Shown here: piece by piece, positions 24,307 through 60,900 of the stretch
Position numbering within the stretch: position 1 is the stretch's first letter
How the letters are laid out: every line of letters starts with the position of its first letter
Source: Polytrichum commune
Lineage: Eukaryota; Streptophyta; Polytrichopsida; Polytrichales; Polytrichaceae
Length of the DNA: 64,000 nucleotides
Direction: 5' to 3'
Assembly: GCA_950295325.1 (NCBI GenBank)
Contig: OX485804.1
Location: forward strand, 42,098,001 to 42,162,000
Notes under the pieces: model-generated
What the model was told of the DNA's origin: nothing
What the model saw: the letters and a program-made list of their open reading frames with translations, nothing else
The model's database searches: none
Program-made: the position numbers and the translations under genes

Positions 24307-24375
24307 ATGTCTCAAGCTCCGAAAGCTGCTTGTCCAGATCATAGGTTGAAGTGCAATGTCACATGTGAGAGTTGA
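24307..24375 (+). CDS. 22-codon uORF overlapping the MOM1-like start
   Basis: ATG at 24,307 opens a 22-residue frame (MSQAPKAACPDHRLKCNVTC and two more residues) that stops at 24,375, overlapping the main ATG at 24,356 in another frame. Overlapping uORFs commonly lower main-frame translation in plants; that role is inferred. Confidence 0.35.
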   Translation: MSQAPKAACPDHRLKCNVTCES

Positions 24376-27300
24376 AAGGGATGAGGTTGCGCTTGGGGAT
24401 TCCACTACGGCGAATAGGAGGGGCGATGGCTTGCAGTCAAAGAAAAAAGCGAGGACGGAGGATGTTGGAATTGAAGGAAGAGAGAAGGCGCAGAAAGTGG
24501 GAGAAGCAAACAGTAAGACATTTCGTCGGAAGTTCATTACAAATGATGATGATACCGAGGAGGAAGTGGAAGACGATGATTCAGAGCAAGAGGGAGCGCA
24601 GGTGAAGGCAGGCTTGAATGTTGTTGTTGGTGGGGGTGGGAAGACAAATTCGGAAGGAAAGGCCTCATCTCAAGACCGACCAACGATTGCTGGTATCATT
24701 CAACTGTTGCACTAAACCCCTATCATTACACCAATCGAGAGTGAGCAAGGCAGAAGAAACTCAGTGTTTCTTGATTAGATTTGTCTGGCAGAGATTCGAA
24801 TCCACTTAGGACCGCCAGCCATGTTGAAGGCAGTGGGTATCCTTTTTGATACTCATATTATCTACCGTTACGTCGGTCTGGCATCCAAAGTGCATTTTTA
24901 AAGGATGTCTGCATTAATGGAACAAAATATGTTTACCTTTGCGGATGTTGTAAATTTCCAACATTTCTAGGTGTGGGGAGAGACTTGCTGCGCACACAGC
25001 ATGTGACCTTCCATTTCATTCACCCAATTTCCCTACATTGGTTTAGGGTAGTGTATGAGTGTCAACGGATGGTTTTTGAGGTTGATGATTTCATGGCTAT
25101 TCATTATCTTACAAAAGTCATCATCTGGGCAGGTGAAACGCTGATTAATCAGGGCACAGGGGTTGTGGATTTGAAGGGTAATCTTCAAGTTCTCAGCAGC
25201 AGTGATGGAGGCTCTGTGGCCAGGGGTGCAGATGAAGAAGAGATTCATCTGCAGCGGAATTCCTGTACTGGATGGAATGCACGTAGGTGAGTTCCTGCAC
25301 TCCGTAACCAAGTTGACCGCCCTATACCATGAAACATTTTTTGATTTTGATGGTTCAGGTTCTCAATATGCAATGTTGACAAGGATGTGTTTGTTCATAT
25401 GGCATCCATGTTTGGTGCCTGTGCAGGGAACCCGGATTTGTTCACTGTGCACCGAACCAGGTTTGCAACAGCTACACATTTTGGGTCACAGTCAAAAATG
25501 CGAGAAGGGGTCAGACCTTTAGTAGTTAGGAGCACACAGATGGGGTTTTTAAGGAATAAATTAAACACATGTTGGTGTCCACCTTAATTATCTCAACTGC
25601 AATGTGCTGCTGAATAAGATTTCCGGCCAAGGTCATTTGTACCAGAGCATCTCCTTTTTGTGGTTGAGTGTAAAGATATAGGGGAGTACTAAATTCATTA
25701 GGTTTTACTGCGGAAGGCATTTGTGAGCATGAACCACAGTAGCTTGCAAAATATATTAGTATCGAAAGGAGCAGCTGGATGTCATTTTGTGAAGCTGTTA
25801 TTTATCTGAAAGGTATTGGCATGGAAACTTTTTCCGCAGGAACATGATAAGGTGGTGCTTGAGGGAGATGAGAAGGATGGACCTGTTTCAGTAAGAGAAG
25901 CTCTAACTGATTCATCGGTTGATATAGATGAGGACAACCACAAAGGCTCAGCACACCTCAGCCTGGTTTGGCTGAAGGTAAATGTCTCCAGAAGCAGAAA
26001 TCCTGCTTTGCTTACTATCAGAATCTGGTCTAAAATTGGTCAACAGCCCGACTGAAGTTCTACAAAACAAGTAGCAAACTTGTACATCTTATTCACCTCC
26101 AAGCAGGCTGCTATAAAAAAACCATCTGGCATTAGAAAGCTCATCTTAGCTACTGTTAGCGTGTTTATGGAGATGGAGGTCAATATGGAACCCAATTCAT
26201 TTTGTGTATTCATGGGTTTACTGTTCAGCATGCAAGGCAAGACTGACCTTATACCTGGAATGAACATGATTTGTGGGTCAGTTGTTACCCAAAGGTTTTC
26301 AATCTTCTCTTGCGACATTTTAGATATTATTCAGTTGCAGTCTACACCATCCTGTGGCTTGGAAGCTCTCTCTCAAGGTTTAGCAAGGACACATTTCCTT
26401 CCCCCCAGTACTTAGCCAGTCTCCCACTCACAGCCACAAAGATACAGGAAAGAACAGCAGGACAGAATCTGCTGATATGAGTCTACGCTTCAGACTGTAG
26501 AGTTGTACTTACCTACATTCAAGTCAGTAAACTTGTAAGGGTCCTTGGAGATCTTGATTCATGAGGTGAAAATGGAAGAGAGCAGAGAGACAGTTGTTAA
26601 CTACATAAAAGGTTTTGTGAGCTCTTTAACGTCAAATGCGTGAGATACAGAAGTCTTGAGATGCAAATAAAGAGGAGACTTTACATGAAATCACCAACAT
26701 CAAACAGTATTCAGGTGGCTGGTTTGGAAGAAGATGTTGTTCAAGCTATGAGAATGAGATTGAGATTCCCCATACAACTTGGTCAACCATAGGGTCAGCT
26801 AGAATTTAAAATTTCCTTACCTCTTTCTTCCAACTTTTCGAAGGAAATGAAATTACCAATGAATAATCTGTACGCTTCTTGCTACCATTGATTATCAACC
26901 ATCATCCATATCTCAATGACCAGAAATTTATAAAATTGTTGATGATGTTTATTGTCATGACAACATTACCCATGTTTCAGGTGGATGAGAAGGGGCTTTG
27001 GTGGCCTGGAAAGCTTGTGACAGAGGCAGAAGTTCCTGCGGATTTCTACAAGTTGCTGGCACTGTCTGAGGGCGTCAAGAAGAGAGTTGTCTCCCTTTTC
27101 AATCCAGCAAAAGAATTTGAACCATACCAGGCTGTTACACGAAGGTGGACTTTTGTGCTTTCTTTTACCTCTGGAGGATGAGGTTTTAACTTGCGAGCTT
27201 GCAAATGAATTCAATTAGCAGTCTCATACTCTTTCCCCCTATTATGAGCATCCCTTTTTTAAACCCCCTGACACTTACGCTTTAAGAAACTCTTGTACTG

Positions 27301-30300
27301 AATGATTTCAATTGTGGATATTTATCTCCAGTGACATCCGACCTTTCAAGCAGTACTACGAGAGCTTCAAGAACAATCATCCCCATCCCAGATTCAAGTG
27401 GGCAGTGCAGGAAGCCTACAGGCTGTTCTGTGACTACTCACAAACAAGTAGTGGAAACACAGACCAGCATACCAACCGCACCATTGAAGAAAAGCTTATC
27501 TCAACAGAAAATAATGGAGGTGCCTTCCAAGAGAAAGTTGATGGAGATGTGCAGTCAAACCAAATCAAACCTGAAGTGGAAGATTCTCAGATTTTAGACA
27601 ACAGTACGCAAGATGGCCAGTCACATGCTGATGTACACTTCAGAAGAATCAATACAGATGAAGTTGTTCAAGCTGGAAGTGAAGTGCCAAGAGGTTCAGC
27701 TCAAATACCTGATGCCACTATTGGCTCTGGTGCATCTAAAAGGAGAGATGAAGAGTCTAGTAGTTTTAAGACGTCGGATAGTGAAGAATGTAAAGTACTC
27801 CATCCAAAGAAGAAAATGTTGGATGGGAACAATCAGGCAAATGCACCTCTGGAGAAGCTTGTGGTGGATCTTGAAATATCACCTTCACATAGGCTGATCT
27901 TATACGACCCATCCTCAAAGGAGCTTCACTTTCAGGATGGAAGTGTATCGAAGGTTGATCCTGAGTCACTGGGTAGACTTTTGAACAAAAGCTTCACAGG
28001 GCTTATCCTTCACCACTGCATCTACAAAGCTGGGAAAGATGATATTCGGAAAAGGTTTCCAAAGCATGCTAGATCTTCTAACGGTCTCGAGTTTAATGCA
28101 CTTGATCAGACCAGCGAGTTTGCGAAGCGGCTGCGAGATACTTGGGCACGAGAATATAAGGATGAATCAATGCCAAAGTTCCTAAAGACAAGGTTTGTTG
28201 CTGGGTGTATTATGGAAGAGAGAGGTGAAGCTGTTAACTGGGCAGCAGAATTAACACATGACATAAACCTAGAGCTGAAAGACATTTATTCACAAAAACG
28301 GTCAGAATTAAGTCCCCCTGTTTATAAGCTCATTAGTCGTGTGCTAAGCCTTCCTCCACAGCAGGTGACTGTGACAGAGAACTGCATTTCTAGTTGCTTA
28401 CTGGATGCTTCTAGGTCCTCTCTTGCTGAGCCTGAAAGGCTCAATTCTGACGACAACACCGAGCCACCAGAAAATGTATCCAGGTACTGTTTCTTCCTGC
28501 ACTTGTCTATTTTGTATGACTGTGACTAAAATCCTGCTGGTAATCAACTCCTTTAGAGCTGTGCAACTGTCCAGAGCCACCATTTTCATAGCTTGATGAG
28601 GTGCATTTTGAAGATGAATGATTCCTGTTTGCCATATCAGAGATTCTGTGTAGAGTGTCCTGCTGCAAATCACATATATTATGAGGAAATAAAAGTTTCT
28701 CTTATAGGAGATTATTGTTGCATTCTAGCTGGATTGGGAGGGGAGCTTCAGATTGGGACACATTCATTATTTTGTCTGATAGCCTAGGTTATGGACTCTT
28801 ATCCTGCTTTCCTTGTGTTAGACAATTGTATTATGGAATTTTGTTCTTGGTCCTAAGCAACTCTGGGTAAAGATACAAGCTACTAGAATTTTTTCATAAT
28901 TGGCTCGTAAGCTGGATGTTTGGAGATAATGCGTTGTCCTCGACTATCTAGAATTTTTTATTTCTGATCAACTGTTTGCTGGGATTGGACTCTCAGATTA
29001 TACGATGGTGAAGGATGTAATGCTCAACAGGAGGAAGTTTCTGACATTCTATTGCGAACTGTTCTCACCGAGGAGGCCCTCTGCTCTAAGTGTGGGTTGA
29101 AATGGAAAGATCATGTTGTCGAGAACATATGGGGTGTGCGCAACGATGGTTCTACCATACTGATCAATAAATTAGATCTAAGCGATACAGTTGAAAAAGA
29201 AATTCTGGCCTACTCAAACTCAGAAAAACCTCAGAAAAATCAACATGCTCTCTATGCTAAACGTTTTCAAATTTACCAAGGTATCCCATCTAGCAGTTGT
29301 GGTGGAAGGAGTCCGCAGAGACCCCATGCAGAGGTGAAACATTACCATGAGCCCCCAGAGGTTTCAACTTCTCCAGAGGGTTCAACTTCTGCAGATGGTG
29401 TGTTAAAGCACACACTTTCCAAAAATAGTCATCAGGAGTATCTTGTACTCTGGAAAACTTGCTCACATAATCAAGGTGAATGGGTATCAGAAGAGGATCT
29501 TGAAAAGTGGGCTCCAAAAGAGTTGGCCTGCTTCAAGAAGTTGGTAACGCAAGGCCAGGTGACATTTCTATACTCTGTCTCAAGTTCGTTTTCACCCAAG
29601 ATCTGACACTGATTGTGTAAAACATCAGACATTCATTCATGTACTGAATCTAGTATGTATATTGTAGGTTTAGCTCAAAGTTTCAGAAGTCTTTAATAAG
29701 AAAGGTAATTGCTAGGGTGTATGAAAATGTCAGTTAAATTTCAGCGACCACTATAATGCAGAACTAATGCATTGCAATTTTCTTGAAGGTGAGCATGCTA
29801 GGCACAGGGCAGAGGCTAAGGAAACGGGTGAGGTGTGACGAGGATCCTGATAGATTTGCACCCGTAAGAGATGTTGATGAGAATGAGAGAAAATTGCAGA
29901 GACGAAGATTGAGTACTGCAGGTGACCTTGAGGTTGTCCATGGGGAAGACGGAGGCTTAACATCTTCTGCTCAGAAGTGTAATATGCAGTCCAATGCCTC
30001 TCCACCAAGTACTCTACCTCCAAATTCACACATCACCGTTTCCTCAAATGCTGTCCTGCCTGCATCCCGTGTTGATACACAGCTCACAGTGACTCATGCC
30101 TTTTCGCCCTCAGCTATGTCCAGAGCTATGCCCAGTGCTATATTGCAAGAGCAAACCACTACAAGCCAACTTAACACAACAAAGGTTTTCTCTCCAGATG
30201 TTACTGAATCATGTTAAAGTCAACTGCTCTTTCTTTGTTGACTAACTAGGGCACTCCACTTTTTTAGCACTTGAAGAGGGCAGTTTGCAACATTGCAAAT

Positions 30301-33300
30301 CTTGTTCATAAGGGGACCTAATTTGTATATCATTGTGAATTTGTACACTATTGACATTGTGAGCAGCCTGCTAACTGAAAAGCTCAATACTAACTGGAAA
30401 CATGTGTATCCGTGTTTAATACAGCACAGATTTTCTCTCCAGATTTTACTAATTTATGTTGAAGTCAACTGCCGTTTCTTTGTTGACAAACATAGGGCAG
30501 CCACTATTTTAGCACATGAAGAGGACAGGTCACTTGCAACCTTGTGAACCTTGTTCATAAGGAGGATGTAGTTTGTAAATCATGTTGAATTTGTACACTA
30601 TGAACATCATGAGCAGCCTGCTAACTGGGAAGCACAATATTAACTGCAGTTATGTGTATCCATGCTTGCTCTGTAATGTGCAGGACTTAAGTACAGCGAA
30701 TAGTCTGCATCAGAATAGCCATTGTCATGGATGTAATCCAAATTTGGGCTCAGATGGCACCCATGTGCCTAAAAGTAATGGTCTGCAACCTGACTCTCCA
30801 GTGATGGTCCTGTCTGTGGCGAGTTCCAGTAACCCTGGTGTGGGTGGTAACATTGCTGCTGTGAATACAGTCAATGCAGGGCTTGATTGCACAGAAACGG
30901 GAAAGGAAAACACATATATTGCATGGATGATAGACATCCTGTCAAAGTTATGCCTGACTTTGAAGCTCCCGGTATGACTCTTCCACTCTATGCATATACA
31001 AATGAATGTTGTTTTAGCACTTGAAGCACATTGTGACCTTCATATTTGGTGTGGCATGTTTTGTGAGGTGTATCATGGACAGGATGTAGTTGGATTTGTT
31101 GAAGGGTGGCACTGGGTTGTCATTGAGTCCAGGGTTTATTGATGTTGCATGACAGAATCCAGTTGAAAATCATGTACAAGAGCTGTTCAAACACATTATG
31201 CGAACCTCCAAAAACCTCCGGAAACGGCGCAAGCGACATGAGGTCATTGCAATTGAACTTGCCATGGTATGGTTTTTTAAACTTATAAATGCTCCCTCAC
31301 CTTCAAAGTACGCACTGTATGTTTTACTTGGGTTGCTTGTGAAGGATTAGATGGGTGTACGTCTGACAAGATCCTTGGAATAGTTACATGTTCTCAGTAA
31401 GTACATAAACGTGGATCCATCTGGACTAAGTGTAATTCTCTTGGAAGTCTTTTGCAATAGATTTACTGGGGTTCTGATTTGAAGAGCAGTTGTAATGAAA
31501 TTGATAATTTATGTTTTGGTGCAAGTTTTATAAGCATGGGCATTTTATGGGCATTTAATGTTTATTGCATAAGCTGACATCGACAAGAAATGGGAAGTGC
31601 ATGAAGCATTAGTTTGCTTCCTAAGAATTTTAATTCATGATCAATTGCAAATTACTAGCGTAATGTTGGTGGACGTGCAAGTGATAGTTGTTCAGAGCAT
31701 AAAAGTTACTTGTATTTTTCTCCTTGGGCTGGCTTGGGGTATAAAGTATGATTTACTGATATTTATAATAAATTGATCTTAGTGATGCTGCTATGATTTT
31801 CTTGAAGTTTCAACTCCATGTCATCAAGACAATGAGATAAACGCTGTAGAGTTTTTCTGGGGTTCAAGGTTCACGATTTGCAGGAGTTCAGATATCTCTT
31901 CCCCTAGATAAATTTGGCCTTGCAAATTTTCACATTGACATTTGTTGATCTGGAGCTTTTTACCATCCAAAAGAAATAAAATCCAATATACAGATTATAG
32001 GAGCACATGGTGTGGAGTGCCTAAAATTACTTTATAAATGTGTATTTTGCAAAGTATGTTTGCAGATTCCAAAGACCATACACGAGTATGGAAGGTGCAC
32101 GTTCTGTAGTGACCGCACCTGTTTACACAGCTTTCTGAATTATTTCTTGTGGTTGAAATGTAGATCTGGTTGGCAGCAGATCGACTTTGTTATCCACTCA
32201 ACAAATCAACCACAATTGATGAGGTGGAGGTGGCACTCAATGTGCATTATGACAACCGCTCCCAACTTGAAAGTGCTCTGTATAAAAAAGTACAGGGACT
32301 TTGCTCAAACTTCAAGACAGCATCTTCTCTACCGACAACTTCTCCTACAGCCTCTCAACCAATTTCAATACCTCAGGCCAATACTTCAAAGTCAGTTGTC
32401 TCGGTGCCAAATACGTCTTTGAGAAGAGAAATTAAGCCTTCTCCTGGGCATGAACCAACAGAAGCCAGACGAGATCAAGAAGTCCTCAGTGATGCTTCGC
32501 AAACGTTGCCTGGAGGTACTCCAGAGGCTGGAGTTCAAGCTGACTATCCAAATTCAACTCTAGCGTCTTCCTGCCCAGGAGTGCTGGCAGTTCGTAGTGC
32601 AGTGAAATCCAAGAACTCTGCACCAAATACCTCTTCCAGAATAGATCCTGTACATTCTCCTGCGCTCAAAATGGCAGAGGTGAGACGAGAACAAGTAGCC
32701 CTCAATAATACGTCCCAAAGGTTGCCTGAAGGTACTCCAGGGACTGGGGTTCAAGCTGACCATCCAATCTCAATTACAGCTTCTTCCTGTCCAGGAGTGC
32801 TGGCAAGCCCTAGTAAACTAAAGTCCAGTACCTCTGTACCACATACCTCTTCAAGAATACACCCTGAATCTTCTCATCGGCATGAACCAACAGAGGCCAC
32901 ACAAGAACAAGAAGCTCGCGATGATGCTTCCCACATGTTGCCTGAAGGTACTCCAGAGGCTGGACTTCAAACTGACTATCCAATTTCAATTATATCTTCT
33001 TCCTCTCCAGCGGTGTTGGCAGTCCATAGTGCAGTAAAATCCAGTAGCTCTGTACTCAAAACCTCTTCAAGAATAGATCCTGAACCTTCTCTTCAGTATG
33101 AACTGACAGAGGCCAGACAAGAACAGGAAGTCCCCAATAACGCTTCTCAAAGGTTGCGTGAAGGTACTCCAGAGGCTGGACTTGTAGTTGACCATTCAAC
33201 ACCAACTACAGCTTCTTCCTGTCCAGAAGTGTCGGCAGTTCCAGTAACACTTCCTTTAGCATCAACCCGATTTTTTAAAGAACGAGAGTTATTCAGGAAT

Positions 33301-36300
33301 GGATCTGAAGCTGATTTTGGTGAGAAAGATCCAGTCTCTGTTTACAAGATATCATTAGACTCATTGCTTGCACAAAACATTCCCTCTGATCCTTATACCC
33401 CTTGTACCCTAACCTCCAGCATGTCTACCGTGGAAGATGGATTGGGGTGGGTGATCCAGGGCGCTTTTCTTCAAGTGCGGTCCACTGAGGAGTGTGAGCC
33501 TTGCTTAGAAGTAGTGGCACAGGCTGTAGAGTTGTTTCCTTGCCCACAGGTACTGGGAGCTGATGCTGCAACAGAGGCGAGAAATCAAAAAGGCTCGGCC
33601 AGAACCAGATCTTCTGAGGCACTTCAAAAGACATTTGAGCCCCCTGTTCAGACACAGGTGGCACTCTGAACATGTTGAATTCTAAATCATTGCCTAAATC
33701 ATGCATCAAAGTCTCTGTGATTGGGATAATTCTGACTCACTAGTTCACACTATAGTGAAGATAGCTAAGCACTATACTATATTGATAGTTTCAGTATGAG
33801 TTTCTTCCTGATACTGTTAGTAGTGAGCAGTTCAATAAGGGTTTAGGGAGTGTCCTTCTGAAGTGCACATCAGTCATGGTGGTGGTAGAATATATAATAA
33901 TGCTGAAGTATGAAGTCAATTTGTCCACTAATTTGAAAGTAGTAGTGCTTTCATGGCTAGCTTAATGCAAATTTGCCTGTAGGTTCAGCTTGTGGCTCTA
34001 AGTTGGGTAGTGCTAATCATTTTTGACCTCTCTGTCACAAGTGAGGTCTCAGTAATAGCAGAAGATCTGATCAGTTCAATCACGGTGTTCATTTTTTCAT
34101 GCTGTGATCTTATATCCCAATTTTGTAATTTTGGTAAAAGACATCAGCATTTGATATGGTGTGCCTGCTGGTTGTATTTTGGTATTAGGGTGTTCCAACA
34201 CCAGAAGACCCAGTACTAGCAAGACTCTATGCACAACTGGCAGAACAATTAAGTGTGGATCGGGAACAAGTTATTCGTGCACAAATGAGGGAGTTTGAGG
34301 AGATTGACCTGAGGTTGGATCAAGAAACAAGACAGCTAAAGGAACAGTTCAACCGAGACTGCCTAAAACTTCGAAGCACGAATGCTGATCCTGAGCCTTT
34401 GATAGTGACAACGAAGCTCGTGTTTGAAACAAATATGAGAGAGGTAGTGCAACGAGCGATTCGGGAGCGGAGGGGAATTAAAGCACGGCAACGCAAGGAC
34501 AGGGACAAACTCAATGAGCTCTATAGAATAGTCACTGGTGAACTTGGGAAACCAGATTTATTGAAAGTTGAGTGGGAGTATAACTCTATCAAGAAGTATT
34601 ACTCTAAGTTTTTCAATCATACGCAAACCCAGCAGCCGGTGCAGGAACCCACCCGCAATCAGCAAATAAATGACAGGAGAACTACACAAGATCTACCAGC
34701 TTCACAAGCTTCATCTTCAAGTAGAATGCCACAGATAAATCAGCGACCAGCAGCTGTCCAAACAGCTGAAGGGCAACGAAGTCAGCAATCTGTTCAAGCT
34801 CCAAGCCTGGTTATTCCACCCTCTGCTGTTTCACCGCAACAACCACAGTCACATGCTGTGCTCCTTGGGTCAAGCCATGGCATAAATCATGGTGTTGATG
34901 CCCAAAGGCATTCACGGGTTATGTCCACAATTGCAATGCCACAAGCTACTACACAGCCTCCTGCTGTGCAAATTCCAATGAATCGCTCTACAGGCGCAAC
35001 ACCTGTTGTCTCTGCGTCGAACGCACCCATTCTGCCTGTTCCTCTGGTATGTAAAAACCTTTCCAGTTTTCATTTCATTCCTTTTCCTCCTTTTAAGTTA
35101 TGTGGGCCTTATGTGGTGACTTCTCTGAATTGGACACCTACATTTGAATGATATATAGTAAGACTTGTAGTTAAGAATGGACACCAAAAAGACACGTGCT
35201 ATAATGAAATTGGACTATGTACTCAAAATGTGTCAATCATTCTAGGTTCAATTGTTAACATCACAATTGGGAGGGCCTTTGTGAGCTCAAAGAAAAAGAG
35301 AATCCTCATTTTGGCCTCCTATAGCTTTTTGCATCCCGTGAAACTCCGGTTTGAAACTTGAATTGGCAATCTTTGTGATTCATCGCAATTCCTGACTGGA
35401 TGAGATGGTTCCCGATCCTCTCTAATGGCCAAAATTGTCTGTGGAGTTGGAAGTGCCCACAATAGGACCCACTTACCTCAATAGAAAACTTGTGGAGGCA
35501 AAGAAACAGAATCTCCATATTGGACCTTGCCAAAATGACTTTGACACACTGACAGAATCTCTGTAGTGTTTTGTTGATTCTATATGAAATAGATGTGGTT
35601 ATTGATCCTGCAGGTTGAACCTCCCTCTGGTGCCGTTCACGAATACATTGATGTCCTTGTGAAGGAAAAGGAAAAGCTGAACAAAACTTTGGAAAGGGTC
35701 AAGGTCATGTTTGACTCCGAGGTAAGAATATGAATATCATCTTTGCTCAAGGTCATTTGGAACAGTTGCTTACATCATGCTAGACATCATCCTGGACTCT
35801 TTTAGTTTATACACTAAACAGTCACAAACATGATGGCTTACTCCAAGCTCAAATTTCAGTCCTTGCATTTGCATTTTCTATCTGGAGAATATAACCCATC
35901 TTGTTTCTTCTAAACATAAATTTAAGAACTGTTTTTCTGGCTTCCAAAACCACTTAATCATATGTATTGAGATTGCATTTAGAAGTCTTACCTGGTTGTA
36001 AAGATCTTACCTGTGACAGGTTGTAACTGCCAATTAATGTTCAATGGCTGGGAGGCTTAGCCTCCATGTGATAGATTAAAGGATGTCATACTAATGTTGT
36101 GAAATATTTGTGGACATGTTTATTGCTCTCCCTTGACAGTCGCTAAGGATAAAAGCACAGTATGATAAGGAAGCAGAGATCCTGTACAAAAGGTATGAAA
36201 CATTGCTTGTTGACGAACACCAAGCTTTTGCAAAGAAACATCAACACATTCAGCAGAAGATCGTGAAAGTGGAATGGAATAGACAGTTAGCAGAGGCCCT

Positions 36301-38659
36301 CAATCTACGAGAAGAACTGGCATATCGTGCAGGTAGGCACTACTAACACAGCCACATCACATTAAAAACGAAGTTCAGATTTCGTGGATGTTTTCTAAAC
36401 TCGCTGAGGATCTTTGATGTCACCATGGGTAAAGGAAATCACCACGGCGATATATAGGTTTCGTCACAAACCTGATAATGCTGTCTAACAAATTTAGCAT
36501 CTCTAGTGGCACTCTAATAATCGTCCACAACCGTTTCATTTTTAACTCTCCTACTGCAATGGTCATATTGCTGTCAACCAGTGACATGGTTGTTTAATGC
36601 CCTTATCAATGTTAGTACATTGTTGCATTTTCTTTTAGCCACTACGACTATTTACTACTGTAGGGTGCTTTATGCTTCGGCTTTTAGTGGACAATGATCC
36701 TTAATCTTGCCACGTGGCAGTCTCACATTGCTTGGAAATTATAATTCGGCATCCAAAAAGGAGGATGAACTAGGCAGCACCTTACATGCTTAGTATATGG
36801 ATATCATGCTCATTTTCCGAATTTGAAGCTTGGGTTTACTTTGTAATGAAGATTGAGGTTTTGCATGATGCTTGACCAGCTACAGGAATAGCATCTGGGC
36901 AGATTCCTTCAACTGCTATGCAAACCCCTCCTCATCAACCTGCTGGACAGCAAACAAGGCCTATATTCAGCAATGCTTTTGCTTCATCTGGTATGCTTCC
37001 CTGCCACAAGTTGCAGTAAAAACTGTTTTCGTAACCAGAGGCTGTATATATTACATCCAAGACAATGGTGTTCTGGGAAGAACTGGAGGTGGCAGAGTTT
37101 ATTTTTCCCAATTCCGTCATGAATTTAGATGTTACTCAGTGATAAGACAATATTTTTCACTCGGGATTACATATAGGAGCACTTTGTACTAGAGCTTGAG
37201 GGCCTAAGCAATTAAGGAAGTTTGAATGATGGAAAACCTACATGGAGCTCTGCTATACATTAAGTTTCGTAGGCTACAGGATTTTCCGTCAAGCCCACCT
37301 CAAAGAGACAGGTCCAACACAAAACCAGGAGACTGTGTGACACTTCAAAACTCACCCTTGATTTATTATACCTTATTGTGTAGAGGGGTCGCATGAATAG
37401 GATGGTAATGAACTAGCTTTTGATCGAGAGCCCAGTCGCATATATCTCTACACTACATTTGAAGGCTTGTGACCACACTAAATTCAGTCTTAATTTTCCA
37501 TGATACGGCCTTCAGATGAGTTTCAAGGGCCTCACAATCTTATGGTCACGGCCCTTGGCTGTAGTGTAAAGTGGCCCTTAGTCTCAAGATGTTCGCTTTC
37601 TGGGGATGGGGGGAACAGGCGCCAATGCTGGAACTATATTCTCCATGGGGATGCCCAGCACATGCTCAACTACTACTGCATTTGGCTACCAGCCACCCCC
37701 AAGGAATCCACTGCACATACGAACTGAGCAACCTCAACAACGTTTACCACAATCTAGTCATGACATGTTATTGCTGAGTAAGGCCCCCTTCTACATCTGT
37801 TGGTGATTTGTAATTTAAAATGTCTTTGTAAAGAAAATGTCAAAGTATAAAATAAATGCAATTTAGAATGCTTATCCACGCCCTGTAAAGGCATTGTCTT
37901 TCCATCTCTCCTGCCAGGTGGGTTTAAATCTCAAAATGAGGAAGAATCTACTGAAGTTTGGTGTTTGGGGGGCTAACCTACCCTGGGTCCATCATTACTG
38001 GAAGGTTCTCTTTCTCTTCAAATGATTGCCATAGGCCATCCCATTTGTGTCCATTCTCAACTAAAAGCTTCCCATATTCCACTAAACATAGGTGTCCAAT
38101 TAAGAAGAGAGGCCACATACCTTAAGCACATTATTGTTCTATCTCTCCAGCTGGTTGAGTCTAACGTCTCAAAGGCAGGAAACATTTGCTGACATTTGGT
38201 GTATTGTTGTTATTCTGCTCAGGGAGGACAATGCCACCCCAGACTATAGCACAGCCAAGTCAACAAAATCCGAGCATCAGTGTATCTCCTCGGGACGCAA
38301 CCACAGTCACAGTTCAGTCAACAGAGCCACACAGAAATACGTCGTCTCTGAGGCTTCCAATATATACTGGAGCAGCTTCTAATATACATGTGCCCTTACC
38401 TCCAGATCCAATTTTAGGTATTATCCAGAACAGTGTTATTCCCTCTGTGAGTTTTATTATGCCCACAAGTTTGGTGGTTCCAGAAGTTGGAGAACAATCT
38501 GTGCCTGCAAACCTTGTGCCAGAGGTTGTAATTGGAGCAGATGGCACACAGGCAGCACAAATGGGTTATTGCCAAAATACCGATACTCGGGCTCAGGTTG
38601 CATCATCACTTCTGAGACCCACTGGTATTATTGTCTTGTCAGAGTCTGATGAGGATTGA
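24356..38659 (+). CDS. MOM1-like silencing-type protein with PWWP-like and chromo-like domains
   Basis: Exons placed by splice sites and frame: 25,840-25,977; 26,981-27,144; 27,332-28,483; 28,997-29,558; 29,789-30,184; 30,684-30,971; 31,156-31,266; 32,164-33,657; 34,189-35,046; 35,614-35,721; 36,140-36,332; 36,880-36,990; 37,589-37,777; 38,223-38,659. All phases agree and give 2,066 residues. The N terminus is provisional (24,356-24,692; 24,971-25,286; 25,359-25,509), for about 2,334 in total. Order: acidic start; PWWP-like fold across exons (VWLK/VDEKGLWWPGKLV, then DIRPFKQYYESF and AVQEA); an unrecognised domain (27,857-28,310); chromo-like YLVLWKTCSHNQGEWVSEED (about 29,430-29,490); a basic helical segment (31,156-32,320); a Ser/Pro repeat region; coiled coils (34,189-34,620; 35,614-36,332, ending RQLAEALNLREEL); C-terminal IIVLSESDED. 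The helical and coiled-coil half resembles plant MOM1, a transcriptional gene-silencing factor; this rests on recalled family features. No SNF2 helicase was found. Nuclear chromatin binding is inferred. Confidence 0.72.
30186..30675 (+). repeat. Two-copy 245-bp tandem duplication inside an intron
   Basis: Two copies start at 30,186 and 30,431, each 'ttttctctccagat...' and both containing 'gagcagcctgctaactg' and 'tgtgtatcc'. They fill almost the whole intron 30,185-30,683. Copy 1 starts at the splice donor and copy 2 ends near the acceptor. Confidence 0.85.
32416..33279 (+). repeat. Coding minisatellite: four 216-bp (72-residue) units
   Basis: Units start at 32,416, 32,632, 32,848 and 33,064, exactly 216 bases apart and in frame in exon 32,164-33,657. 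Each carries SSRI(D/H)P, a (T)EARQEQE-like acidic patch, LPEGTPEAG and ASSCPGVLA. The units differ by many substitutions but no length change except near the end of the last, indicating selection or recent homogenisation for frame and length. The composition is Ser/Pro/Ala-rich and probably disordered. Confidence 0.93.
35100..35560 (+). repeat. R1 dispersed-repeat copy in an intron
   Basis: Lies in intron 35,047-35,613 of the MOM1-like gene and matches the 21,490-22,720 units in the same orientation (for example 'gacaccaaaaagacacgtg', 'gaaactccggtttgaaacttg', 'gttcccgatcc'). Confidence 0.7.
37176..37577. mobile_element. Diverged PIF/Harbinger-type MITE in an intron, next to a splice acceptor
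   Basis: The right end reads TGTAGTGTAAAGTGGCCC followed by TTA, matching the GGGCCRCTTTACACTA termini of this window's family. The left end (GGAGCACTTTGTACTAGAGC) is about 75% similar in inverted orientation; its exact edge is uncertain. The element sits in intron 36,991-37,588, and its right end is only 11 bases before exon 37,589. Confidence 0.6.
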
Positions 38660-42530: not shown

Positions 42531-45500
42531 TTAGACCAAAGTTGGGCACTTGGCATCAAAGAAATCTCGAAGCATGCGAGCAGGTTGTCTTCCCCCCATT
42601 AACTCAGCTAATTCTTCCACCGAAAGCAAGGCTATCTCTGCAATGCTCTTGCACCCATCCATGAGTGAGCGATAATTTGCATCAGTGACACCTGGCAATC
42701 GTCGGAGTAGCTCCACAGCAGTGGTGTTGAAACTCTCTGCCCTGTAAGCCCCACCAGCAATAATTTGAGATCCAGTTCAATTAATCAGTCACATGTACAT
42801 AGTCAGCTGTCTACAGGTGACATTTCATAGATCTCATAAAATCTGAGATGCATATTTAAGGTAGACATGTCTTAAATGGTTAGTTTTTGTTGTTTGTCAT
42901 GATTCTCAACTAGGATCCCAGAGTTAGGATTTTTCGAGAATCGTGCATGTGGTATGAGATTTTAGCAACAATCTATGGAATTTTCTGATTCTGCTATGAA
43001 TTTTTGGAGTCAAAAGTGCTGGAGCCATAAAACAAATAGGTAACACCACCCCCACATATGTTGACTATTGAGCCCTATAATGGTTGACAAATTTTGAGCA
43101 CGTAGTTGAATCTCTCTTAACTAAGCACATGTTTTTTGGGTGTCTCTTCCACACCAAACCAGACACCAGTCAAATATAGGTGTCTAAATAAGATAAGAAA
43201 ATAAGACACTTTTACCTTCCATACGCATCATGTGCCAGACCCTAAGCTAGTAACAGAGGTAAGACACGATTCAAACCTGATGTCTCCCTCAATGAGTCCA
43301 TCTTCAGTGGGCACACCAACCCGCATTGCTCTATCGAGGTCTGGCTCATCCTGATTTGCCTTCAGCGCTGCAAAAATGTCGGCTGTAGCATGTAGGCTAC
43401 GAGACCACACTATACGTAGACGTGGGAAATGCAGTACCAATAATGAAACCTTGGAAATGATGTTGGCAGGTACAATATCCTCGCCTACATCACTCGCCGA
43501 CTGAGACAACACATCCAGAAACATAAACGTAAGTGGGTTTGACACTGATTAGTAACCGAATTACACCTGCTTATCTTAATAAAAAACTGCTGTGAGTCTA
43601 AATCCAGAAGTGAATGAAGGAAATCAAGACAAGGCATTACAGCTGTGCATGCACTGATTTCGACTGACCTGAAAAGAAAAGCTCTTGTCCTGAGAAAACT
43701 CTATAAGCAGTACAGGAAGGCGGTAGTGCCGTGTCATTGTTTCAGCTTGATGATAAAGTCGTCCAGATGCAAAACTGGAAAAAAGATCTGCAACACTCTT
43801 TCGTTCCACACAGATGTCGTTTGAAAGAATATAATCCCCAACTTCAAGAGTAACTGGTATGATCTTCATGCCCTGTTGGTGAAGGACAGACGGAAGACTA
43901 CTCCCAAACTCCCTCATGTCCACCACCACCTATGTCACAGTCCCTCATTCCCCTCAGCTATCTATTTACAGAACACAAATAATCAGATAGATTCTAACTA
44001 GCAGCACTCGAAACAAAATATTTCATCTCCAAGTTAGTCAGTAAAGCCAGAATCGAATTTCAATGCATGCAATGCTGATATTGAGACGCTCCATCCTGGT
44101 TGACGAGAAATATGATTTTCTTACAAAACAAGGTAGTCTTCATCAACCACACAGAAGCATAAATCCTTGTGGATGTCAAACAAAGGATGGTTGTACAATG
44201 GTCTACTTGCTGATAACCTTAAAAAAAAGTTTCAGAAATCTACCTGCATCTGCTTCTCCACTTGCTTACGCCCACCAGCCTTTCTAGTTACAGCATTTAA
44301 TGTAACCCCGGTAGCAGACATCTTTGGTGGAGATGCATGCAACATTCGTCCATCCTGTGATAACAGAGGAATCAGATACTTTTACTAAACCAAAGAGTAT
44401 TCATGTCAGTAGTAGTCAAATTACCTTCTATTACATTCATTGGTCTTTAAGAAGATGCGTATATAAGAGAATAGCCACAAATGACAAACCTGCAACATGG
44501 AAAAAGTACCTGATCTACTGGAATCATCATTGATGCCTTCTGCCGAATCAAGGCTTCAAACGAATTATTCTCACGCCGTATACTAGCTTCAAATTTACAC
44601 GCCTCAGTGGACTCTTCATAAAATAGAAAGTACACCTTTAACGGGCGATCTTGATTCATTGCCTTGTAGACCTCCAACTCTCTCACGAAACCCATATCAG
44701 GGTCATAAACTACAACAAACAATGGCCTCACAACGTCTAAGATTCGCTGCTCACTCTCCAAGGCATAGAAATGTACAGGTGGTATTGGCTTTCTGCCCTG
44801 CTCTCCCTCCAAAATTGTATCCTTTTCAGAGGTGGTACTGTCCAAATAGTTAATTTGGACAGAGTCTTGCTGTAAATTGATGCCATCTGGTAACTCTGGA
44901 CCTAACTCTGTCACATTGGACTTGCCCTCTGTGGATGAGTCTATTTCATTGCTTGTCTTGTTCTCCATATCAATCTCATGACCACATCCCACTTCCTTCC
45001 CTACCAATCCCAGCAACCAATTGCAAGAGATGAAAATGAATTCACTTGAATGTCACCAAATGTTAGCAATACAATAGTACAATTATTACCTAAATGACAA
45101 CTGTGAAGTACAGCCGTTAGAAACTGTTGTCTCCAATTTCCAGCTTATGTCTCCTAGTACTTTTTCCAAATAGAAGAGCTGAGATTCAAATATAAGCAAC
45201 TGTAAAGTGGAACCTTGCAAAATTGTGTACCTTTCCCAGTTCTTCCACTTATTCCTTTGGTTCTTCCCCTTCCTCTTCCTCTCCCTCTTCCGCGAGACCT
45301 CAATCCTTTCCGTACAGCCACATCCTCTCCAAGGGCAATGACTTCAATATTAGCAACAGCAACCTCAGCAGCAGCAGCCATCAGAGCTCGTTGCTCTTCA
45401 CTCTGTGCACTTCGAGTGTGATCTCTACTCTCACCTTCCTGTGGTCCTCCATGGCTGCCTTTTCCTATCATGACTCCAGCCCACTTTGGCGGGGCAATTG

Positions 45501-48491
45501 GCTTTTTCTTGTTACGCATCCTCATCCCATGAAGCTCCGCCTTGCTAAGTAAATATTTCTTCCACTCCTCTCGCATGACCTGTGCACCAGTATTTTAGTT
45601 CACAATATCCAGCAGAAAGAGAAAAGGAAAATCACATGACAAGGAGAGTGATTGACGAATCAACATCAGAAAGGATAAGAGGAGATGAGACTCTATGTGT
45701 CAAGAACAGAAATACAGCTAGTCTATTGTGTGAAAATGCAGAGTATTATCCAACATATATTATGCAGACCTTGTCTGATCAAGCAGAGATGGAAGCCAAG
45801 CATCACTACCTCTTCTACATAGCTCAATGGCCCACAAGATGCCAAGGACCAGTAAAATGGGTACTACTCAAGGCAATTTCACAGCTTTCTCTTCTACAAG
45901 CATGTAGCCATGAATAGTGGGTTCATGTATTTGGAATGTCCAGCACATAGTCAAAGTACAAATGAAGAGGAGAGCTAGGTATATAATTGAAACTCTTCGC
46001 AAGGCAAACAATCTAAAATTACAGAATACATCAGTACCATTTGCAGTGTTTTAGATCCTAGATGACCTGCTCAACAACAGCATAAGTACACTGCAACAAT
46101 TGGGACTGTTGAATTTTTTTCTGATGGGCCTCACCTAGACACTCCTTGGCTACAATGCTTTGCAGCCATACACTTACACATGCAACACAAAGAGAGTGTT
46201 TGATATCTGAGACACAGAAACCTCAATGAAGATTGAGGTCCTTCTGCCTACTGGAATTACAAATAATATATGGAGACAAGAAACAAACCAGAAAGTCCAT
46301 GTTGATACATAAAACTCACAGAAGAAAAAGGACATGCATGGAGTAGCTACCTCTTGTGGTCCATGACTGATAATATCTTGGAGCTGCATACACATCCGCT
46401 CATCCTTGCATGCTACAAGGACTGGGCCTCCACCTTCACCCCACGCATTTTGTGACAACTCTGCTGTTACTCCTGTGACATTAAATTTTTGCCTCTCCTC
46501 CTCTATTTCCTCTAGCACTTCCTGAAGTCCAAACAGAAGCAAAAGTGTGAGAAGAAATTTGCAGCTCAGAAACTCCCCACCACTGGCTACATTAAAATTG
46601 GTTATTACTCAGAAGGGTGAGATTGCAGCCCAATCAGATATTGATGGTTGCACAGGAGCATATCTAGACATCCACCTAAGAAACTGGCCATAAGTACTTG
46701 ATAAAGACTATGTAACTGTTGATTCTAGAGGCTGTTAACTGGGCTAACACTTGAGAGGCAACAACTCAAAGCATGTCCTTCACATCTGATTCTATTTATG
46801 ATACTTAGAAATTGGAAATTGTGAACAGAAAGCATAGGCACTTGCCAAAGAACAGAAAGCATAGGTACCCGCAAGATTCTCCACTTTGGCATTTCCTCTA
46901 CTACCGGTTCCAGCTCAACTTCCTGCACCTCAACTGTTCCTTCCCCTACCACATGGGCTCCTTCCACACTCACACCATTTCCGGGTGCTCTGTCATTTAG
47001 AGGTATTGCATCTATGTCTGACTTATCTCCAACTTTCTGACGTTTGCCACCAATTTCAATATCATTCTCCACTGAAGCAATTCTGCCACCTGGACACCCA
47101 TATTAAACAAGACTCTTAAAAGCACGTTGCATGAGGACTGTACTAGCCAACTTGTAGCCAATCAGAAATTGAAATGTTAATAATGCAGCCAGGAATAACA
47201 TTCTCATGTGGACATCACACCAATTGCAATGGCAACATCTCCATGCTCCATAGGAGCTTCATTTTGGAATATAGAAGGACTCAGGCAACAGGATAGAAAG
47301 AGACATACATGAATCACAGAATTTATACTGGAAGATGTTTGGGTTGTTGAAAGACCTACCTCCAGTTTTCCTCTTCGAAGCTATCCGGCCACCACCCCGA
47401 CCTCTTCCTGCTTGAGCCCCACCTTTTTCTTGCCTAACCCGGCTCCCATCTGTTCTAACTAGCATGTACACCCGTCTCTTCGCAAGCTCGAAAATCTTGT
47501 GGGTGGGATTAGCAAATATCCACACCGACCTCACTCCTTCTGAAGCTCGCAAGGTGTCCAAATACTTCAAGAATGTTACCGCATCGTAACGAAGTAGATA
47601 CTCCACCAATTTCCTCAGGGTTTTGAGATCTCCAACCAGTTGTTTTGTTTTCCGCCCTACTGTATGCCATATGGGATCCAATTGAGACCTAACAATCTCA
47701 TCAAAGGACTTAAAAAGCCCATTTTCCACTGTCAATTCCTCAATATCAACTTTATTAGTTTTCCTTAGCTCCTTCAAGCACGCATCCATAACCTCAATAA
47801 TAGCACTCTGGATGCCAGCCATGGCTGCCGTCAATGGCATTCGTATGTCCACCACTACAGGTGGGGTTTCTTCCAACTCTTGGCTCACAGAAAGATGAAA
47901 CCTTGGCCAAATGTACAACCTCCTCACAAACAAGGATTTCATAATTCTTTCGGTCTTTGCAAACCCCGAACTCATGGCTTGAGGTCGATCCGAAAATGCT
48001 CTTATAAACCCTACCCTATTGGCTTGCCGGAACAGCCTGACAATGAAAGCTTCTGCACAAGTCTCTGTCAACCTATGTGCATTGTTCACAACAATGCCTG
48101 CCACTTTGTGCAGTGGTACCCGATCGTTCAACATATCCACTATCAAAATTCGGGATGTGATGGAAAATGCACCTCCCTTGTTGTACAATTCAATTCTTTC
48201 TGCACTTGTGTTCTGGCTGTTGATGTCCATTGGGAGGGAGGGATGTCCATTTGGGTCTTGGTCTTGGACTTCTTCTCGAATGGCCTGACGTTGAGCATCC
48301 GATGTGGAGAGGAGGAGAAGCAATCCATCTGCAGGAGAGTGCAAAGAGAGCAGGGAAGCAAGCACTTTCACTAACCCTAGCCCAGAGGCCAGAACTGTGA
48401 TCCCATCTTCTTCCAGAAGCTCCCCTACCATCTGCTGATGAAAGGGCAACATCTCTGTTGGCAACAGAAGAGTGACAGAGGAGGGGCCCAA
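42531..48491 (-). CDS. XPF: XPF/RAD1/UVH1 structure-specific DNA repair endonuclease subunit
   Basis: Nine exons in transcript order: 48,491-47,360; 47,089-46,869; 46,521-46,351; 45,579-45,231; 45,000-44,510; 44,354-44,244; 43,929-43,669; 43,500-43,277; 42,741-42,531 (TAA). All junctions are GT..AG and phases agree. The preferred start is 48,452 ([17 protein letters not shown], matching the family N terminus), giving 1,043 residues; ATG 48,491 would add 13. Family role: with ERCC1 it cuts 5' of lesions in nucleotide excision repair and removes recombination flaps in the nucleus. Visible: a degenerate SF2 helicase-like half, ATP motifs not conserved as usual for XPF; a linker with an RG-rich patch in exon 4; ERCC4 nuclease in exon 7 with D816, GDY 843-845, ERK 854-856 and D860; a C-terminal helix-hairpin-helix ([13 protein letters not shown]...ELMGGRQPA). 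The gene looks intact and lies tail to tail with the MOM1-like gene. Intron 1 is flanked by a repeated GGRIAS coding motif. Confidence 0.96.
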
Positions 48492-48639
48492 GCATCATTC
48501 AGATGAACTTGATGGATTCATGCAATGAATACCACGAAGCTCCGAATTCCTGCAGCAGCCAAGACCATCAACAGAAACAAACAAAACCATAAATTCATGT
48601 CCAACCTTCAAGGTGATGGATGTACTGCAGTTTAATTTC

Positions 48640-58064: not shown

Positions 58065-60900
58065 ATGACTGATCGGTATGAAAACAGGAGATCCTACCAG
58101 AACAGAGGTATACTTTTATGTGCAGTTTTCTTACATGACGGGGACCTGTAGCATGTCCTTTGCTTGCAGATGCAGAGTTGGTTAACTCTTGATGCTTTCA
58201 TTGAGATCTTCAATGTAAGACAATTCTGTACAGCCTGCTAAAGACTCTGTTATCCTGCTCTGCTAATGCGTGAGCTGTGTTTTGGGTTAACCCATGGAGC
58301 TTCTTTATCTTCTCAGGACAGCATGAATACTCTAGGAATTGGAGACGTGGAGGTAGAGATGAGCGGTGTCGGGAAGCCCCCAAAGATCATTACAGAGGTA
58401 AAACCAAGGTAGCCTGTGGAGAGTCACTAGTATGCTGCCACTGTTGCCCTTCCCGTCCATTCTTAATCAAATGACTACGGTCAATCAGGGCTTATGATAA
58501 CCAACTAAATATTGATGTGTTTATTCAAGTCAATGTAGGTAGCTAATTGTAGTCAGTGAGTCTCTGCGTCTTGTTGAACTTGTTTAATGCTGGAGATGAT
58601 GGTAAAGTTGGATGGCCATGGGGCGCCTGTGGTTGCACAGTCCATTTGTCTGTCTGAACCACAGAGGTCTGTTACAGAGTGAAACGCCCACAAAATGTTA
58701 TGCTTCTTTAAAGCTTTTGTTCACCTTATTTCTCCTCTATCATCAGAGATGAGGTGATTCTCCCACATGCACAGTCAAAGATACTATTAGACCCAGAGCA
58801 TACACAGAATTAATCAGTGACTCAGAACATAATGACAACTCACCACAGAACGGGCAGAGTGCCGCAGAGTCCTACTTTGTCTTCACGCATTTCTAGGACT
58901 ACTTGACCATTTAGTGTCAAATTTCCAGACAACAGGAGGGAGGACTGGCCTTCTGAGTGGATTCAAAGTGGGTGGTCCGATCCTGCCCCATCTTCCAGGA
59001 ATAAGCAGAGCAATCAGTTATATGTCAAAGGTATGGTTCTTTGACCAGTTTGTGAATATCACTTCATTTCAGTGATAATTGTACAAGAATGTCCCTTTTC
59101 TACACAAGGAATATGCAAGTGTTCAGAGGAAAAGATGAGGTCTGTGGCTCCAAGAGCTTTCTTTGAGGGTGCTGCTGGAGATATACGTTCATTCTTTCAA
59201 TGTATGTTGATGTTAATTTAATTGACTGGTTGTCTCTAGTCTGCTGTTTTGGTTAAAACTGGCATTTCTTTTGCTGAACTTGAATCTTGAAAATAACTCT
59301 AACAACAGGCACATGGTTAGTTCAGATTCCAAGGTGACAGAACTTGATGATAGGGGTTGCACTGCTGTTACAAACAACACGATAAGAGGCAATGATGGTT
59401 GGTTGTGGAATGCACCCGGGGAGAATTCAGAAGGTAAGTTACACTTCCTGTTCTGTTTATGATGGGGGCCTGCTGTAGATGAAGAGTTCAATTTCTGCAG
59501 CTTAATTGCCATCCTGACATCTACTCTCCATTGAGGATTCTTCTTGTGCCTTCAATCTTGGATCATCTTTTGAGCTATTCCTTGCATGTGTCAACAGATA
59601 CCAAGTTGAAAGGTCATCATGGGTGGGATGAAGTCAAGACGGCTGGTCCAGCAGGTATCAAAATTAAATTTCATTATGTCAGGTGTTTTCTAACAAATCT
59701 GCCTGTTTGAGTGGCACTGGGGCATGCAACTTTATTTTCTAAAAGCTTAATTGCCTTTGATGTCTGTGACCCAGATGCTACAAGTGGGTGGGAGATCCTT
59801 GGATCAAAGAAGACTTTTGATTGGAGTGAGCCCCCACATATTGAGAGTGTGGACTCCTGGGATGATTCTGGTGTCAAAGAAACATGGAAACTCTACCAAT
59901 CTGGACGCCTACCTGTGGAGGACGCAGACCTTTACATTGATAAGAACATCAACTGGCATTTCAGGACATGTATGGATATTCCTTCATCTGCAGATGATAA
60001 GAGAAGGTTGCAAAAGGCATTCCCCAGAAGATCTGGCAGCCCTGTCATTTTGAATCTTGAAAGCTTACTTCTCGAAGGAGAAGCAAAACTCTTACAGGGT
60101 ACAGGACAGGTGCATGTGAGGAAATCAAAGTCCAATTTGTCAGGTGCAAAAGCTAAGAAGGATGGAGAGATTAGTGGTTGGGATGTTGTCAATCAGTCAA
60201 CTTCACCAGCCTGGCAAGGGGCACAGCAGCAGCCTTGCGAACCAGTATCAAGGGGAAAACGCAAGATCAGTGAGAGAGATGACAACAAAGATAAGAGCTA
60301 TAGAAGTAGAGGTGGTATGTACATCAATCCATTGCTTGTGCTGACAGGGTTGTGTCACCGATAGTGTTGCTATGTGTTCTGTTGTCAGTGCACGGTACTG
60401 AATGGCACCAGGGATTCTAGAGATGCAACAATCTCCTCAAGATAAAATTTGGAAGATTGCGGGTCATTTCATGAATATTTTGAGAAAGCATATTTCCGTC
60501 CACCAATTCCTGCAGTAATTTCATAAGTTATCTGATGACTCTCCTCCAGTATTACCTAGGGTTCTGGAAATTTATTTACGTGACGTGGTTGCAACTTGTC
60601 ATTGCCATGAATGATGAAGGTCACATTCTGATAGTGCCATAGTTGTGATTACATTCATGTGTCTGTGGACCAATAGAAGTTGCATCTGAACACATCCAAA
60701 TGTTCGGGCGAACTCTATTTCTGCAAATTCACACTTAGTGAAATGTTTTGCCCAGTACATTTTGAAGGTTATTCAGCAGCTCAGTTTCCACGTATAACAG
60801 GACTATGGCAGGTGCATGTACTCGGTGGGTGCGGTTGGCAAATGTTTGCTACAGGCAGGGATGATTGGTGTAGGAAACCAAGGTACTCCTCGAGCCACAG
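58065..60900 (+). CDS. Arg/Trp-rich protein with WG/GW motifs, CCCH-like last exon, 3' end unresolved
   Basis: Exons: 58,065-58,107; 58,317-58,397; 58,929-59,030; 59,326-59,433; 59,598-59,654; 59,775-60,314; and tentatively 60,801-60,900. All internal junctions to 60,314 are phase 1 with consensus sites. The start MTDRYENRRSYQNRG follows a leader acceptor. Tryptophan motifs recur: DWPSEW, SGWSDP, NDGWLW, HHGWDE, SGWEIL, FDWSEP, DSWDDSG, SGWDVV, PAWQGA. The 59,775 exon has a compact core (TWKLYQSGRLPVEDADLYID...NWHFRTCMDIP...GSPVILNLESLLLEGEAKLL), presumably the conserved domain, then a basic KRKISERDD tail. The last tentative exon reads FATGRDDWCRK...SSSH, resembling a CCCH zinc finger with a Tyr at the third Cys position. 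WG/GW peptides can bind Argonaute, but that is inference. Family not firmly recognised; exons after 60,900 were not found. Confidence 0.6.

Follow-up and report, generated by a model that had tools for sequence, protein, structure and literature searches.

Does a moss possess a gene of the MOM1 silencing family, and what kind of protein results when chromatin-contact domains share a chain with a MOM1-type half in which the SNF2 helicase is missing? Both questions are raised by a locus of Polytrichum commune that lies in a stretch of 64,000 nucleotides (contig OX485804.1, C2:42,098,001-42,162,000; hereafter the window), for which an earlier note, made from the letters alone, had described PWWP-like and chromo-like domains joined to a MOM1-like half. 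There is good reason to think that the locus is a moss MOM1-family gene, one of two old paralogs, which has lost its SNF2 region and probably acts as a dimerising silencing scaffold. The two halves are in all likelihood parts of a single gene, presumably with one transcript, because a paralog on another contig (C6) is collinear with it, has matching intron phases and carries PHD, chromo and SNF2 domains between the two parts. Published work is cited by PubMed Central number.

The spliced gene and its domains

Fourteen exons between 25,840 and 38,659 (+) splice into one uninterrupted frame of 2,056 codons plus stop, a count that replaces the 2,066 residues previously given for the translation from 25,840. 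The splice sites were placed by eye (AG ahead of every exon, GT behind all except the last), and a six-frame reading of the window finds the motifs quoted in the earlier note in their places. An 82-codon stretch at 24,356-24,601 (+), opening with the ATG at 24,356, is the probable first coding exon; its donor CAG/GTGAAG after 24,601 (phase 0) would join it in phase to the exon at 25,840. No better start was found among the open frames of 24,692-25,839, and this exon has no visible counterpart in the C6 copy, which opens with exons for a zf-CW.

The N-terminal end is encoded by exons 25,840-25,977 (start of the PWWP, aligned to C6 exon 3), 26,981-27,144 (PWWP core KGLWWPGKLV, with the PF00855 match running over the joined exons) and 27,332-28,483, which carries the end of the PWWP and a conserved domain of about 160 residues (27,846-28,373) recognised by its identity to the C6 copy. 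The exon 28,997-29,558 then encodes a remnant of a second PHD finger (PHD2) followed by chromodomain 1. With Pfam run on four hand-joined pieces of the protein, the chromodomain lies over the cut-off (Chromo, E 1.9e-7) and the PWWP just below it, as detailed further on. In the pair alignment with C6, 3 of the 8 zinc ligands of PHD2 are kept, and complete PHD patterns number none in the window protein and two in C6. Against the PDB the N-terminal half gives weak matches only, the best being the CHD4 chromodomains (0.017). Beyond a 230-bp intron (29,559-29,788) follows the exon starting VSMLGTGQRLRKRV (29,789-30,184), with basic clusters that lie between the helicase position and CMM1 in both copies; this stretch ahead of CMM1 appears to be like a nuclear localisation signal (NLS).

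The start, middle and end of the Pfam "MOM1-like domain" PF25029 are distributed over the exons 30,684-30,971, 31,156-31,266 and 32,164-33,657, located by Pfam and, for the first two, also by protein search against C6; in the exon model the third continues into a low-complexity region. The match lies over the cut-off (E 5.1e-10, 39.7 bits against 27), and from its position in the chain we take the domain to be CMM1. A MOM1 match in this half, on which the earlier note had staked its reading, is therefore present, and it shares a single spliced frame with the PWWP and chromo modules, as that note had proposed. The third of these exons also contains a coding tandem repeat (32,437-33,239, +), in which a unit of 216 bp, encoding 72 aa, recurs 3.7 times with 76% matches; the array faces mostly gaps in the C6 alignment and, as far as that alignment shows, occurs in the window copy only. 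Arabidopsis MOM1 and MOM2 are described as each carrying repeats of their own (PMC2507757).

The remainder of the protein comprises a coiled-coil region (34,189-35,046), delimited by identity to the C6 copy; a CMM2-like coiled coil in two parts (35,614-35,721 and 36,140-36,332, the latter with WNRQLAEALNLREEL), recognised by identity to C6 and by comparison with the solved Arabidopsis CMM2 chain 3VEM; two linker exons placed from splice sites and frame (36,880-36,990 and 37,619-37,777); and the last exon (38,223-38,659). Pfam reports no family in the CMM2 region beyond a chance match. The protein ends in GIIVLSESDED (stop) and its paralog in SVIYLSDSDDD (stop), so that both C-termini bear a CMM3-type SUMO-interacting motif (SIM): IIVLS in the window and VIYLS in C6, a short motif compared by eye with VVCLS in Arabidopsis CMM3 (residues 1994-1998 of 2001; PMC6084981).

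The conserved domain of about 160 residues is 64% identical between the paralogs (C6 copy at L014:6535-7050, -) and as conserved as the PWWP. Neither Pfam nor the PDB offers a convincing match for it, and an AlphaFold model from the two sequences is of low confidence (pLDDT 56.5). It could be the counterpart of the MOM1 N-terminal homology region (33-140). A PDB profile match to ribosomal eL21 (best E 0.057) was taken as chance.

The full-length paralog and the loss of the helicase region

Genome searches covered 408 Mb in 64 contigs, and the match counts they give are lower bounds. Protein queries with both halves of the window gene find one further locus with the pieces in the same order, C6:24,927,631-24,941,405 (-), at 36-67% identity (56% for the PWWP piece, 47% for the next and 67% for the CMM2-like piece). 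The other match is weak, to the chromo piece of a CHD3 gene on contig C5 (E 0.476), and no third copy is among the matches listed. The model of the C6 paralog (C6:24,926,043-24,942,960) has 25 exons and 3,071 residues; the donors of exons 16 and 24 are uncertain and were picked to keep the frame. Its domain order is CW-PWWP-conserved domain-PHD-PHD-chromo-chromo-SNF2-CMM1-CMM2-CMM3. Pfam, again run on pieces, places over the cut-off a zf-CW at the start (PF07496, C6:24,942,550-24,942,960; 9.8e-7), the PWWP (6.6e-8, 33.4 bits) and PF25029 (1.8e-10), and also reports the two PHD fingers (5e-10 and 7.5e-11), two chromo stretches (2.9e-16), SNF2 (1.9e-20) and Helicase_C (2.5e-9). The continuity of the chain is visible within single exons, one of which runs from the end of the PWWP through the conserved domain and halfway into PHD1, and another holds the end of PHD2 with chromodomain 1; the PHD-chromo-SNF2 part then continues into CMM1. 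In blocks of the pair alignment the two proteins are 62% identical in the PWWP and 63% in CMM2. Profile searches of the genome listed neither MOM1 gene: PF25029 returned only a weak place at C5 30,749,304 (E 4.22, under the cut-off), and PWWP listed two other loci. Both genes were missed because such profiles miss genes split by introns.

The absence of SNF2 from the window gene, claimed in the earlier note, is borne out by searches with the C6 parts. When these were compared with the whole window by tblastn, the control (PHD2 tail plus chromodomain 1) was recovered at 2e-18, and the best E values for the others were 1.9 (CW), 0.99 (PHD1), 5.7 (PHD1-linker), 0.83 (chromodomain 2) and 1.6 (SNF2). 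A genome search with C6 chromodomain 2 plus SNF2 lists at least 23 matches, none of those listed at the window locus, and the exon of the C5 CHD3 gene finds only the chromodomain in the window (3.6e-4; next 1.5). Thus none of the CHD3-type features sought by tblastn or by PHD pattern (SNF2, chromodomain 2, a complete PHD) occurs in the window copy. From the chromodomain 1 exon to the VSMLGTGQRLRKRV exon the window has 230 bp (29,558/29,789), and in C6 the corresponding interval, from the exon ending LAQGQ to exon 16, starting VNMLGKGQRGRKRV, measures 4,838 bp and contains the chromodomain 2 and SNF2 exons (C6 exons 8 and 16 being the ones compared). The pair alignment wrongly sets the exon after chromodomain 1 opposite SNF2, and the VSMLGTGQRLRKRV/VNMLGKGQRGRKRV match was read by eye from the exon starts. 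The borders of the junction are phase 0, which explains how the frame survived the loss of whole exons.

Since the C6 paralog keeps CW, two PHD fingers, two chromodomains and a degenerate SNF2, the missing helicase of the window copy is best interpreted as a secondary, derived loss of whole exons and not as an ancestral state; chromodomain 2, PHD1 and most of PHD2 appear to have been lost as well. The union of PWWP, chromo and MOM1 parts in one chain would, by the same comparison, be the older state, in place before the duplication. The layout had previously been suggested to be either ancestral or lineage-specific, and the C6 copy divides that statement: "ancestral" fits the joined chain and does not fit the absence of the helicase.

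The C6 motor is itself predicted to be degenerate. An intact CHD3 gene of the same genome (C5:33,306,742-33,308,646, -), in which an open frame of 1,011 codons encodes both SNF2 (Pfam 2.5e-77) and a double chromodomain, is 34% identical to C6 SNF2 (175/519 aligned positions). The motifs GxGKT, TGTP and RxHRIGQ (I, III and VI) are present in the C5 protein and not in C6 SNF2, where DEGH is also changed to DEGR. A DE.H at index 1020 of the C6 protein lies outside SNF2, so it was not counted. PF25029 was not reported in three scanned open reading frames (ORFs) of the C5 gene.

Membership in the MOM1 family and rival explanations

The window gene shares with Arabidopsis MOM1 (At1g08060) and its seed-plant homologs the order CMM1, a CMM2-like coiled coil and C-terminal CMM3/SIM, a basic stretch ahead of CMM1 and after the position of the helicase, and low-complexity repeats. 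In Arabidopsis MOM1, however, the second SNF2 lobe survives and PHD and chromo are gone (PMC2507757), whereas the window gene has a PWWP and one chromodomain and no SNF2. The poplar and Selaginella proteins PtMOM1 and SmMOM1 resemble the C6 paralog in PHD, double chromo, SNF2 and CMM1-3; C6 differs from them by an additional CW, PWWP and second PHD, and the window copy by the lack of a working PHD, chromodomain 2 and SNF2. Arabidopsis MOM2 (At2g28240) is described as lacking SNF2, keeping CMM2 and CMM3 and having its own tandem repeats (PMC2507757), much like the window gene with its CMM2-like coiled coil; it is, however, a C-terminal part only and is said to have no NLS, whereas the window gene has the PWWP/chromo end and basic clusters. 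SNF2 does not define the MOM1 family, because MOM2 has none and because Arabidopsis MOM1 stays active after deletion of SNF2 residues 511-837 (PMC2507757). The same article reports that silencing is almost restored by an NLS together with a CMM2 segment of 197 aa. A dimerising silencing scaffold is thus the most economical interpretation of the window gene: the parts that are nearly sufficient in Arabidopsis appear to have been kept, and the dispensable part has been lost.

For CMM2, which in the MOM1 family is a hendecad coiled coil, 3VEM was retrieved and aligned to both copies. The C6 CMM2 scores 82, which none of 2000 shuffles reached, and the CMM2 tiles are the best match to 3VEM among 151 tiles of C6 and 100 tiles of the window protein. 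The ratio of nonsynonymous to synonymous substitution (dN/dS, NG86) between the copies is low in most retained domains, at about 0.20 in the PWWP, 0.24 in the conserved domain, 0.13 in chromodomain 1 and 0.29 in CMM2, with 0.36 in the PHD2 remnant; a pairwise ratio does not separate the window branch from the C6 branch. In 8 of 8 compared blocks, third codon positions are more divergent than first and second positions.

Several observations nevertheless weigh against an intact MOM1-family scaffold. The window PWWP match (E 4.4e-5) reaches 24.4 bits, just short of the cut-off of 25.6. The coiled coil is only 37% identical to C6, and the coiled-coil and C-terminal parts together 35-37%, with dN/dS of 0.43 and 0.35 in the coiled-coil and C-terminal blocks; all these ratios are rough because dS between the copies is 0.8-2.4, and CMM1 was not computable. 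The window CMM2 scores 50 against 3VEM, a value reached by 24 of 2000 shuffles and weak when taken alone, and 3VEM is not listed at E<10 by phmmer or hmmsearch, either with the window coiled coil or with a two-copy CMM2 profile. In Arabidopsis, moreover, the CMM3 SIM is reported to be dispensable for silencing, and SUMO2 to be absent from MOM1 co-purification (PMC6084981).

The window gene might instead be an independent CHD3 derivative with an acquired coiled coil, which would have only a helical domain in common with MOM1. On the main reading, too, plant CHD3 remodellers (PICKLE and relatives) are the source of chromodomain 1, the PHD2 remnant and the exon framework; the window gene, in contrast to them, is without any ATPase, and the C5 CHD3 of the same genome is intact. 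The frail 3VEM match of the window CMM2 and the absence of 3VEM from the HMMER listings are what the CHD3 explanation draws on, but it is unlikely in view of CMM1, CMM2 and CMM3 in MOM1 order with CMM3 at the extreme C-terminus, of a C6 CMM2 score above all the shuffles, and of a C6 SNF2 that is degenerate as in MOM1 homologs, in which residues are described as replaced (PMC2507757). MOM1 is not counted among the CHD proteins in the available part of PMC4036436.

The disappearance of PHD1, 5 of the 8 PHD2 ligands, chromodomain 2 and SNF2, together with fast divergence in some regions, might also mark a decaying pseudogene of a full-length copy that is part-way through domain loss. A frame open for 2,056 codons over 14 exons with GT-AG sites, the third-position excess in every block and dN/dS well below 1 in the PWWP, conserved domain, chromodomain 1 and CMM2 (values that belong to both branches jointly) make this quite improbable. 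Least probable of all is a pair of neighbours, with the N-terminal PWWP-chromo part as one gene and the MOM1-like C-terminal part as another. MOM2 does offer a precedent, as a stand-alone C-terminal half (PMC2507757), but the C6 copy has the same order and intron phases with PHD-chromo-SNF2 between the two parts, and the poplar and Selaginella homologs are described as single proteins that have PHD, chromo, SNF2 and CMMs together (PMC2507757).

Neighbouring sequences, proposed mode of action and meaning

Elsewhere in the window, an open frame at 1,367-2,659 (-) encodes an AAA ATPase (Pfam AAA 6.6e-40; katanin/spastin-like by eye). None of its listed paralogs lies near C6 24.9 Mb, so this one neighbour does not support a block duplication. 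ORFs at 44,450-48,494 (-) have the look of an XPF/RAD1-type repair endonuclease by eye, two of which were scanned and gave no Pfam match at 0.001; a frame of 217 codons at 59,711-60,361 (+) likewise has no Pfam match at 0.001. Rfam and tRNA scans found nothing. Two marker proteins of the genome agree with a moss. A chalcone-synthase exon scores 677 bits with the PDB entries 6dx7, 9jl6 and 9kah, against 547 with 2p0u (Marchantia) and 509 with 6dx8 (Selaginella), and an allene oxide cyclase scores 247 and 230 bits with 4h6b and 4h69, against 198 with the Arabidopsis protein; 6dx7 and 4h6b/4h69 are from Physcomitrium patens. LEAFY pieces have a Ginkgo chain and the homolog 4bhk as their first matches and favour no group.

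As a silencing scaffold, the window protein would act in the nucleus, docked on chromatin through its PWWP/chromo end. At what we take to be the cage positions of BRPF1 and HP1, the first PWWP aromatic is G in the window and D in C6, and one chromo aromatic is C in the window. The aromatic cages of the window PWWP and chromodomain therefore look incomplete, and DNA or nucleosome binding is as likely as methyl-lysine reading. CMM2 would form homodimers, or heterodimers with the protein of the full-length C6 gene, perhaps as MOM2 joins MOM1; the dimer may then recruit PIAL-type partners together with RNA-directed DNA methylation and MORC factors, and targets would stay silent without any remodelling ATPase. 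In Arabidopsis, MOM2 is described as a C-terminal homolog present in the MOM1 complex, miniMOM1 pulls down MOM2, PIAL1 and PIAL2, and MOM1, MOM2, PIAL1/2, PHD1 and AIPP3 occur together, with RNA-directed DNA methylation recruited via MORC6 (PMC10338684). PIALs are reported to be more prominent in bryophytes (PMC11371177).

MOM1 is an unusual silencer, which acts largely without altering DNA or histone marks. Its homologs were described as seemingly absent from Physcomitrella, with CMM2 not detected, and MOM1 as having arisen with vascular plants (PMC2507757), at whose onset it would have joined RNA-directed silencing (PMC3276543, which also presents the CMM2 structure). In the main text of PMC2507757, neither PWWP nor CW-type occurs once, and no PWWP-bearing or moss MOM1 was met in the available parts of the open-access literature searched. 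On present sequence evidence, the moss window and C6 genes would speak against the vascular-plant origin of MOM1 and CMM2 advanced in 2008 and 2012 (PMC2507757, PMC3276543). More tentatively, and as a possibility that we hold somewhat short of even weight, the MOM1 platform may predate vascular plants and have begun rich in readers (CW-PWWP-PHD-PHD-chromo-chromo) with a dead remodeller, the helicase-free moss paralog being a dimerising partner and an independent parallel to the MOM1/MOM2 pair of Arabidopsis. If true, the two moss MOM1-type genes would shift the origin of MOM1 to an earlier time, with chromatin-contact domains in the same chain. By analogy, and with its silencing role presumed, the window gene would be a natural parallel to the helicase-deleted Arabidopsis MOM1, which still silences, and this natural helicase-free version of MOM1 may serve as a probe of which parts silencing needs.

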